Of a DNA stretch of 64,000 bases, positions 2,483-64,000 are shown piece after piece. Each line of letters starts with the position of its first letter. Position 1 is the stretch's first letter. Both the position numbers and the translations under genes were made by a program. Source of the stretch: an uncultured Eubacteriales bacterium (GTDB lineage Bacteria > Bacillota > Clostridia > Christensenellales > CAG-138); the NCBI GenBank assembly GCA_902801845.1, contig CADCJW010000006.1, positions 62,001-126,000 of the forward strand, read 5' to 3'. The notes under the pieces were generated by a model. It was not told where the DNA came from and made no database searches. It saw only the letters and a program-made list of their open reading frames with translations.

Positions 2483-3079
2483 ATGTTCTCGTTTTTGAAA
2501 AAGAAGAAGGGACCCTATGCCCAAACGTCTACGGCGGACTGGCAGGACCAGTGGCGGAGTCTGGTGCCGCCTGAATGCCGGAACGTGCCGGTGACGGTGG
2601 ACGGGGTGAGCATCGAGGCCTACGTGCTGGTGAACCATTTCGCCATGATGCTTCAGGACGGGCTTTTGATGGAGGCCAGCTTCTTCGATGTGTGCGAGCA
2701 CTTCCAGCGAGCCGGCTACCACGTGATCTGGCTCATGCGCTGCACCCAGGACGTGTACAACGGGTATCTCAAGCGGGCGGGGGAGCGGAACGGCAGCACC
2801 CGCTGGGTGTGGAAATCGCCCACCACCAACTTCGGCCGCTGGATCTCCGACAATCGGGAGGCGTCCATCCTCATCCAGCATACGGAGCTGCCCGCGGGGG
2901 ACATCCGCGATTGCGATGCGCCCGTTTTGGGCCGGGTCACCTGGGCCACCAGCGACGACGACACGAAGATGGTCCCCGGCCGCACCGAGTTTCAGACCCT
3001 GCCCCTGCCCGCCACGCCGAAGCAGCTGCTTCGCTGGCTCAACGGGGAGTCGCTCAGAAGCATATCGGAGAGGAATTGA
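2483..3079 (+). CDS. Hypothetical protein paired with the YfcC transporter
   Basis: 198 aa; I do not recognise the family. A clear ribosome site (GGAAAGGAGAAG) precedes the ATG and codon use matches the neighbours, so it is a real gene. There is no signal peptide or membrane segment. The N-terminus is lysine-rich (FLKKKKG); the body has many Trp and Arg residues and reads as a soluble alpha/beta protein (for example ASFFDVCEHFQRAGYHVIWL and RWVWKSPTTNFGRW). It lies 18 nt downstream of the transporter gene, suggesting one operon, and is followed by a structured convergent repeat. A role as an enzyme acting on the imported substrate is only a guess. Confidence 0.7.
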   Translation: MFSFLKKKKGPYAQTSTADWQDQWRSLVPPECRNVPVTVDGVSIEAYVLVNHFAMMLQDGLLMEASFFDVCEHFQRAGYHVIWLMRCTQDVYNGYLKRAGERNGSTRWVWKSPTTNFGRWISDNREASILIQHTELPAGDIRDCDAPVLGRVTWATSDDDTKMVPGRTEFQTLPLPATPKQLLRWLNGESLRSISERN

Positions 3080-3091
3080 TGGAAAGCATCT

Positions 3092-3227
3092 GTGCCTTTT
3101 CTTGGTAAGAAAAGGCACCCCAAAAGAACTTAAGAAGGGGTATTGCTTTTCTTGCGAAAGCTTTACCCCTTCTTGCATTTCTCTTTTTCCGCCGCTTTTT
3201 CTCTTTAGCCTAAAGAGAAAAAGCGGC
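3092..3227 (+). repeat. Structured convergent-gap repeat, copy 1 (plus orientation)
   Basis: Three hairpins in order: A, a perfect 12-bp stem 3092-3103/3107-3118; a middle stem 3132-3142/3164-3174 enclosing a smaller one; and C, a perfect 17-bp stem 3191-3207/3211-3227. Between A and the middle stem is CCAAAAGAACTT. Before C is CTTTTTCCGCCGC. The same layout occurs at 11590-11719 (inverted) and 34689-34824. It fills the gap between the convergent genes ending at 3079 and 3244. Confidence 0.85.
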
Positions 3228-11589: not shown

Positions 11590-11719
11590 GCCGCTTTTTC
11601 TTTTCAGGTGAAAAGAAAAAGCGGCGGAAAAAGAAAAGCCCAAGAAAAATACTGGGGATAGGCAGCAAAAAGCCGATCCCCATTGAGTTTCTTTTGGGCC
11701 CCTTTTCTTTCAAGAAAAG
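11590..11719 (-). repeat. Structured convergent-gap repeat, copy 2 (minus orientation)
   Basis: Read on the minus strand: hairpin A (11702-11709/11712-11719), then CCCAAAAGAAACTC, a middle hairpin with GGGGAT/ATCCCC arms, then CTTGGGCTTTTCTTTTTCC and hairpin C, a perfect 16-bp stem 11590-11605/11610-11625. It occupies the space between convergent stops at 11572 and 11741 and matches copies 1 and 3 in order and sequence of parts. Confidence 0.85.
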
Positions 11720-13383: not shown

Positions 13384-13400
13384 CCGGATAATAGACATGA

Positions 13401-13425
13401 AAAAAGCCTCGCAATGAGGCTTTTT
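13401..13425. terminator. Bidirectional terminator between convergent genes
   Basis: AAAAAGCCTC (13401-13410) and GAGGCTTTTT (13416-13425) form a 10-bp stem with a GCAAT loop. The A and T tracts make it usable from both strands, for the amidase-like gene and for the NTPase operon. Confidence 0.85.
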
Positions 13426-13438
13426 CTCGTTTTGGGAT

Positions 13439-28974: not shown

Positions 28975-28989
28975 GAAGAATTTCAGCAT

Positions 28990-29019
28990 AAAAGCAGGAA
29001 GCCTCGGCTTCCTGCTTTT
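28990..29019 (+). terminator. Terminator of the L21-L27 operon
   Basis: AAAAGCAGGAAGCC and GGCTTCCTGCTTTT pair with a two-base loop and further T, a 14-bp stem. It also faces the convergent repeat-protein gene. Confidence 0.92.
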
Positions 29020-29072
29020 TTGTCGTTCATATAGCGCCATGTCCGGGCGGGGGAGTTGCGCCGCAGCGTGTA

Positions 29073-34688: not shown

Positions 34689-34824
34689 TGAACCTTTTCT
34701 TGAAAGAAAAGGTTCAACCAAAAGAACTTTAAAAAGGGGAAGGCTTTTGAAAACCTTCCCTTTTATTATTCTTGAGCTTTTCTTTTTCCGCCGCTTTTTC
34801 TTTTCGATGAAAAGAAAAAGCGGC
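34689..34824 (+). repeat. Structured convergent-gap repeat, copy 3 (plus orientation)
   Basis: Hairpin A 34689-34701/34704-34716; CCAAAAGAACTTTAAAAAGG; a middle hairpin with GGGGAAGG/CCTTCCC arms; CTTGAGCTTTTCTTTTTCC; and hairpin C, a perfect 16-bp stem 34790-34805/34809-34824. It has the same length as copy 1 and fills the gap between convergent stops at 34677 and 34836. Confidence 0.85.
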
Positions 34825-63285: not shown

Positions 63286-63457
63286 ACCACTCTAACTATA
63301 CGGCTGGGGCGGCCTACTCCACAACAATAGACGTCCCGCCTGAAAAAAAGGAGGAATTGGCCCGGCTCGGGCTGCGGCAGCGTGGAGACCTGTCGTAATG
63401 CGGCCGAAAACCGCGAGGGCGCCTCTTGCGGAGGCAGGGCGCTTGGAGCAAAATCAT
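63286..63457 (+). promoter_or_regulatory. Leader region before the importer ATPase gene
   Basis: 172 bases without an assigned gene. It holds AAAGGAGG near 63350 next to a TTG-initiated 13-codon frame (63357-63398), and GCCTC/GAGGC near 63420-63435 that can form a hairpin. I see no good promoter; a leader peptide or attenuator is possible. Confidence 0.3.
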
Positions 63458-64000
63458 ATGGCAACCGTACAACTCAAGAACATCAAGAAGGTCTATCCCT
63501 ACATCAGCGGGGAGCAGAAGAAGTCCAAGAAGAAGGACGATCAGCCCCAAAAGAAGATCAACCTGCAGATCACCGACGAGGGCGTGGTGGCGGTCCAGCA
63601 GTTCAGTTTGGATATCGCCGACAAGGAGTTTATCGTGCTCGTCGGCCCCTCGGGCTGCGGCAAGTCCACGACGCTGCGCATGGTGGCCGGTCTCGAGGAG
63701 ATCACCGACGGCGAGCTGCTCATCGACGGCAAGCTGGTGAACGACATCCCGCCCAAGGACCGGGATATCGCCATGGTCTTCCAGAACTACGCCCTGTACC
63801 CCCATATGACCGTATACGAGAACATGGCTTTCTCCTTGAAGCTCCGCCATGTGCCCAAGGCCGAAATCGACAAGAAGGTCCGGGAGGCTGCGGAGATCCT
63901 GGATATCACCCAGTACATGAACCGCAAGCCCAAGGCCCTGTCCGGCGGCCAGCGGCAGCGTGTGGCCATCGGCCGCGCCATCGTCCGGGCCCCGAAGGTC
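63458..64000 (+). CDS. Sugar ABC transporter ATP-binding protein (MsmK/UgpC type), N-terminal part
   Basis: 181 codons are present; the gene runs off the window. The start ATG at 63458 has GGAG 9 nt upstream. Walker A is [13 protein letters not shown] (about 66-78), the Q-loop [17 protein letters not shown], and the signature [15 protein letters not shown]; the Walker B region lies beyond the window. Between the first strand ([10 protein letters not shown]) and AVQQFSLDI there is a Lys-rich insert of about 30 residues ([18 protein letters not shown]) absent from typical MsmK proteins. It probably energises the importer encoded upstream. Confidence 0.93.

Follow-up and report, generated by a model that had tools for sequence, protein, structure and literature searches.

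A dispersed repeat with inverted, potentially triplex-forming ends near gene 3′ ends in a clostridial genus

Three gaps between convergent genes in the DNA of an uncultured Eubacteriales bacterium are filled by the same structured element, which raises the question of what this repeat is and why it lies where genes end. The stretch analyzed, referred to here as the window, comprises 64,000 nucleotides of contig CADCJW010000006.1. A preliminary description of the window reported three copies with a fixed order of parts at short distances from the flanking genes, and these observations hold: the copies lie between convergent stop codons ending at 3079 and 3244 (copy 1), 11572 and 11741 (copy 2), and 34677 and 34836 (copy 3). 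Five of the six flanking open reading frames (ORFs) contain Pfam domains (AMP-binding, YkuD, YpsA, SpoIIP and glycosyl hydrolase 2), and the ORF at 2483-3079, which flanks copy 1, has no Pfam match. Several other convergent gaps of the window carry ordinary terminators, as had been stated, for example at 13384-13438 and 28975-29072. No Rfam family matches the three-copy repeat at gathering threshold in a search of the window, weak miRNA-like matches from a permissive search are hairpin artefacts, and searching papers for the exact repeat sequences gave no match. The sole gathering-level Rfam match in the window is a malK-I RNA (RF03069) at 63298-63463 on the plus strand (116.9 bits). Judged by its sequence features, the repeat is most likely a bidirectional 3′-end element in which a terminator hairpin is placed between two triplex hairpins.

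Anatomy of the element

The element is about 135 bp long and consists, in order, of hairpin A, a box, a variable hairpin B, a pyrimidine run designated the Y1 arm, and hairpin C. In copy 1, on the plus strand, sequence and folding place hairpin A, with its pyrimidine (Y) and purine (R) arms, at 3092-3118. It is followed by the box CCAAAAGAA at 3120-3128, hairpin B (GGGG/CCCC), which folds with U-rich tails on both strands, at 3131-3175, the Y1 arm TTTCTCTTTTTC at 3178-3189, and hairpin C, composed of a GCCGC clamp and a Y/R tract, at 3191-3227. Copy 2 lies on the minus strand, with the core of hairpin A at 11702-11719, the box CCAAAAGAA at 11689-11697, hairpin B at 11653-11682, the Y1 arm CTTTTCTTTTTC at 11627-11638 and hairpin C at 11590-11625. 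Copy 3 returns to the plus strand, with hairpin A at 34689-34716, the box CCAAAAGAA at 34718-34726, hairpin B at 34731-34765 (also a terminator-like match on the minus strand), the Y1 arm CTTTTCTTTTTC at 34777-34788 and hairpin C at 34790-34824. All three copies fold strongly as RNA from either strand (z -6.6 to -10.3 against dinucleotide shuffles). The stems of hairpin A are compensated, as had been claimed; base stems such as GCAGC, GTTC, GGTCC, TGAACC and TCTTACC, among others, are all paired.

Three hairpins had been described before, and two mirror third strands had been overlooked: one is the CCAAAAGAA box, the other the CTTTTTC run that precedes hairpin C. The box mirrors the purine arm of hairpin A (in copy 1, AAAAGAA against the R arm AAGAAAA), and Y1 mirrors the pyrimidine arm of hairpin C. 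A triple helix needs such a mirror third tract, a pyrimidine tract binding by parallel Hoogsteen pairing and a purine tract by antiparallel reverse-Hoogsteen pairing. Because the box and Y1 mirror their own hairpins, each end of the element is a potential intrastrand triplex, and the two ends are inverted. On the plus strand, hairpin A has the order Y-R-R′ (class II of PMC4666352) and hairpin C the order Y′-Y-R (class IV); these roles swap on the minus strand, so that the whole element is an inverted pair. As in other intrastrand-triplex repeats, a Y tract, an R tract and a mirror third tract occur together on one strand, and the repeat is intergenic and present in many copies, 7 of 131 overlapping an ORF call. 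A GC clamp separates the third strand from the hairpin, and the resulting linker geometry may or may not allow the triplex. A by-eye comparison found no clear scaling between linker and base-stem length in hairpin A.

Range, genomic context and turnover

In the genome from which the window comes, a search for the core of hairpin C with at most one mismatch gives 49 matches, whereas the reversed control pattern gives none; the core is matched in 12 of the 12 genomes examined for the genus. A covariance model built from 25 copies, with up to 52 candidates scored per genome, gave 31 to at least 52 matches in each of the 12. Of 49 genomes from elsewhere in the family and order, only 2 gave matches, and these were weak. 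The repeat is largely genus-specific, with dozens of copies per genome and near absence elsewhere. A scan of a species genome collection, whose pattern fixed the T run of hairpin C at exactly five and required nothing of Y1 or hairpin A, returned mostly uncultured Clostridiales assemblies among the matches listed. A phage or plasmid origin was rejected after empty searches of viral contigs with the hairpin C pattern and of plasmids and phages with copy 3. In another genus belonging to this family (genome G019), two loci, L149 and L163, keep the inverted layout with unrelated sequence, their individual arms being mirrored over about 16-18 nt. Lone A/T-rich modules are found in G036 and in the distant genomes G232 and G332 of the phylum, and similar sequences appear in plasmid records of Burkholderia, Ilyobacter and Parabacteroides.

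Neighboring genes were called with a home-made gene caller. The 114 copies with two called neighbors are distributed over 67 tandem, 44 convergent and 3 divergent gaps; all gaps of at least 80 bp in the same loci, element-bearing ones included, number 187, 72 and 55, respectively. With element-bearing gaps removed for the odds ratios, copies are enriched in convergent gaps (odds ratio 3.9, p 1e-6), a point that the preliminary description had suggested checking, and depleted from divergent ones (odds ratio 0.08, p 2e-8). The specificity for convergent gaps proposed there fails: copies in tandem gaps, which it had named as a refutation, count against convergence as such, but the broader claim of a 3′-end element stands. 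The distance from hairpin C to the facing stop codon has a median of 13 nt and is at most 25 nt in 69 of 80 cases, and orientation within tandem gaps is balanced (31 versus 36). Together with the avoidance of divergent gaps, this spacing and balance define a gene-3′-end element with no strand preference.

Hairpin B has a mean z of -3.1 and is weak in about one quarter of copies. U-rich tails extend from it both ways in 60 of 96 copies by a loose U count, and at least 6 U fall within 12 nt past the stem in 82 of 96 on the plus strand and 71 of 96 on the minus strand. A strict terminator scan found none in copy 1 and minus-strand matches only in copies 2 and 3. The earlier suggestion of a bidirectional terminator is partly upheld, in that location, the terminator swap described below and the U-rich tails on both strands are consistent with it, and the element would presumably terminate transcription.

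Orthologous sites reveal how the element changes. At the copy 1 site it is present in all seven genomes, the window's included, between flanks that are 83-95% identical; the versions differ, and Y1 and hairpin C are altered jointly. Another example is the L030 site, where one end module has changed from CTTCTC.../GAAGAG to TTTCTC.../AAAGAG between the window's genome (G000) and a close relative (L062, flanks 97-98%), with the base stem likewise replaced and compensated. Two relatives lack the element at L030, with no obvious terminator there instead. The copy 2 site has the element in three genomes, in one of which it is partly deleted. In four relatives (G003, G006, G008 and G009) the site holds nothing but a short terminator, for instance AAAAAGACCGGGATCCCGGTCTTTTT (...GACCGG..CCGGTC..), which is canonical and bidirectional; in G007 and G011 it holds a terminator together with other DNA. 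This site shows, at one clear location, a natural swap between the element and an intrinsic terminator. At L003, a GC-rich hairpin stands in place of the element in one relative.

Parts of the element also come and go. Orthologous copies at L120, L207 and L204 keep hairpins B and C without hairpin A, so the halves can be lost separately. Some orthologous copies persist despite loss of hairpin A or C, which counts against the triplex-and-terminator reading. Ectopic conversion is suggested by the way versions are swapped while the flanks stay conserved. The mobility proposed earlier, or conversion, is supported by dozens of copies per genome, presence or absence at orthologous sites and version exchange at a fixed site. 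A Y1 transposase (PF01797), as in REP/RAYT systems, was found in 2 of the 12 genus genomes, some of which are incomplete; the repeat is in 12 of 12. In the window's genome, this transposase domain lies in a 395-aa open frame at L246 (G000:C5:39319-39675). L096 contains the box-B-Y1-hairpin C unit twice in tandem. A second repeat of about 110-155 bp (...GTGCTGCGCCTCGCTGCATCTGCCACAGGCAGCGCTCGGCTTCGC...) lies within hairpin C or A loops at L205 (the copy 3 site in G002), L005, L019, L014 and L096, and seems to home in on the loops of hairpins. L228:9818-9973, with many matches in relatives, is probably another copy of it.

A rival reading is a selfish or neutral structured repeat, BoxC- or MITE-like, whose copies persist only in gaps at gene 3′ ends, since landing anywhere else does harm. 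On this view the terminator features would be incidental, and the triplex would serve the repeat's own spread, for example through replication stalling that leads to conversion. Such a repeat fits the near confinement to one genus, the presence, absence and replacement of versions at fixed sites and the persistence of truncated copies, and the best-studied triplex repeats have no known host function and are linked to instability (PMC4666352). It is harder to reconcile with spacing as precise as 10-25 nt past stop codons, with an element taking the place of a canonical terminator and with B hairpins that carry U-rich tails both ways; a selfish or neutral origin is judged possible but unlikely.

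Function might instead reside in the DNA, with H-DNA or slipped triplex hairpins arresting RNA or DNA polymerase or absorbing supercoils between converging genes. Mirror polypurine tracts, which are the classical H-DNA sequence, are present here, and the enrichment in convergent gaps points the same way. The related PIT elements of E. coli act as blocks to DNA polymerase in vitro, but in vivo footprinting detected no stable triplex at one of them (PMC4666352). The majority of copies lie in tandem gaps, and the added inverted repeats favor single-strand folding over plain H-DNA, which makes a DNA-level role quite improbable.

Covariation of third strands and hairpins

In a test set of 88 copies, the box follows hairpin A as its mirror with a z of 13.5, and Y1 follows hairpin C with a z of 9.0. 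Cross-pair controls between third strands and hairpins give -0.4 and -0.9, and Watson-Crick covariation between the box and Y1 is absent in the same copies (z -0.3). Other relations between box and arm were tried and rejected: direct repeat reaches a z of 5.5, reverse complement 1.4 and complement 0.3, against 12.0 for the mirror. The six variable nucleotides of Y1 perfectly mirror the R arm of hairpin C in 116 of 129 non-redundant copies, where permutation yields a mean of 53.9 and a maximum of 73. Against the R arm of hairpin C, Y1 matches 11 of 11 positions in 115 copies and the Watson-Crick arm does so in 95, an ungapped count that inserted bases lower. The pairs fall into classes that include TTTCTC/AAAGAG, CTTTTC/GAAAAG and CTTCTC/GAAGAG, with T6/A6 versions as well. 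At the other end, the hairpin A arm and the box carry A-runs of equal length at 3, 4 and 5, a few cases excepted, and boxes AAAAGAGAAA accompany arms of the kind AAAGAGAAAAGG.

Among 352 perfect Y/R hairpins of at least 9 bp in the genus loci, 268 lie beside a mirror third strand of at least 9 nt, compared with 14.5 when flanks are shuffled and 129 when they are swapped; 17 distinct R arms occur among the hairpins with such third strands. Modules are inherited as units, and the covariation z-scores therefore overstate independence; the distinct mirrored classes and the co-changes at orthologous sites are not affected by this. At the level of sequence, each third strand is shown to stay a mirror image of the hairpin it belongs to, as Hoogsteen pairing requires, and constraint on the third strand is well supported. 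Mirror symmetry is evidence of that constraint and not of a triplex actually forming; in vivo, the element may form one.

These results bear on a plain Watson-Crick bidirectional terminator, with the box and Y1 paired as the base of hairpin B. Parts of the box do pair with Y1 or neighboring bases in minimum-energy RNA folds, but the near-zero z between box and Y1 and the covariation of each as a mirror with its own hairpin already disfavor such a terminator and leave it with very little probability. A family of 3′-derived small RNAs or RNA-processing sites, raised in the preliminary description, fits the 3′ UTR position and strong structure but is scarcely credible, as no conserved single-stranded seed exists outside the third strands, no Rfam family reaches its gathering threshold and no sigma-70-like promoter was found in scans of the three copies.

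Proposed mechanism and known systems

The explanation as a whole, two inverted A/T-rich triplex modules around hairpin B with a bidirectional 3′-end role and spread by conversion or mobilization, is considered somewhat better than even. In either direction, RNA polymerase would transcribe one end hairpin and then hairpin B and a U-rich tract, which would act as an intrinsic terminator. On one strand this tract is Y1; on the opposite strand the box, read as its complement, supplies it. Transcripts that read through could form a hairpin with a triple helix of U.A-U and C+.G-C triples, possibly resisting 3′ exonucleases. C+.G-C triples are disfavored at neutral pH. The inverted layout would make the pyrimidine, RNA-compatible form the last structure of both converging transcripts. 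Copies may spread and be overwritten through ectopic conversion or some mobilizing process. According to PMC4666352, intrastrand triplexes are found in RNA when they are of the pyrimidine type but not when they follow the purine motif. Terminator activity and a stable in vivo triplex are both reported to be absent from E. coli PIT/BoxC (PMC4666352), which counts against the model; a terminator role here would depend on hairpin B and its A/T-rich tails.

Repeats of the intrastrand-triplex kind were described in bacteria decades ago and are not known to have a function, and those of E. coli are few and nearly identical. The 12 related genomes compared here, each with dozens of diverse copies, provide comparative evidence of selection on the third strand itself, and placement at gene 3′ ends makes a defined function testable. 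If an RNA triplex does form, it would represent a new route to bacterial mRNA 3′ ends.

Several known systems share features with the element. Like the REP/BIME repeats of RAYT transposases, it is a dispersed palindromic repeat near gene ends with loops that seem to serve as insertion targets. The element differs by its mirror third strands, and membership in the REP/RAYT class was rejected on the restriction of the Y1 transposase to those two genomes. Bidirectional Rho-independent terminators share its position at gene ends and a hairpin with U-rich tails on both strands, and one replaces, or is replaced by, the element at an orthologous site; unlike them, the element is about 135 bp long, has three hairpins and third strands, and belongs to a dispersed repeat family. 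MALAT1/ENE-type RNAs contain a U.A-U-rich triple helix near the RNA 3′ end. By analogy, the proposed triple helix would be of similar composition and position, although MALAT1/ENE uses a poly(A) or A-rich 3′ tail and the third strand here lies 5′ of one hairpin. A wider proposal, that a spreading repeat supplies hundreds of mRNAs across the genus with a U.A-U triple-helix hairpin that forms or protects their ends, symmetric for both converging transcripts and a bacterial counterpart of such 3′-end triple helices, is speculative and on balance doubtful.

The closest relatives are the BoxC/PIT/TM-ECO repeats of E. coli and other bacteria, which share the Y-R-R′ module and are likewise intergenic and repeated (PMC4666352). 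For TM-ECO, triplex formation in vitro is reported from CD and NMR (PMC4666352); for the element described here it is predicted from sequence. It is not TM-ECO proper, as its A/T-rich tracts do not fit the consensus CCCTCNCCC...GGGNGAGGG...GGGNGAGGG. Five E. coli BoxC/PIT pairs have the inverted configuration seen here. For instance, the BoxC pair at hrpB-mrcB starts about a dozen nt past the hrpB stop and has the same layout, Y R R′ - 16 nt - Y′ Y R, in a G/C version: CCCTCTCCC-GGGAGAGGG-GGGGTGAGGG ... CCCTCACCC-CCCTCTCCC-GGGAGAGGG. The E. coli BoxC/PIT elements are G/C-rich, follow the purine motif and have no A/T-rich U tract, whereas the element here is A/T-rich, with predicted pyrimidine triplexes compatible with RNA. 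It also differs from BoxC/PIT in usually being a pair around a variable hairpin B, in its 3′-end bias and in the covariation of its third strands. Its kind, the intrastrand-triplex repeat, is already known; new here are the third-strand evidence gained by comparing copies and the proposed role at gene 3′ ends.
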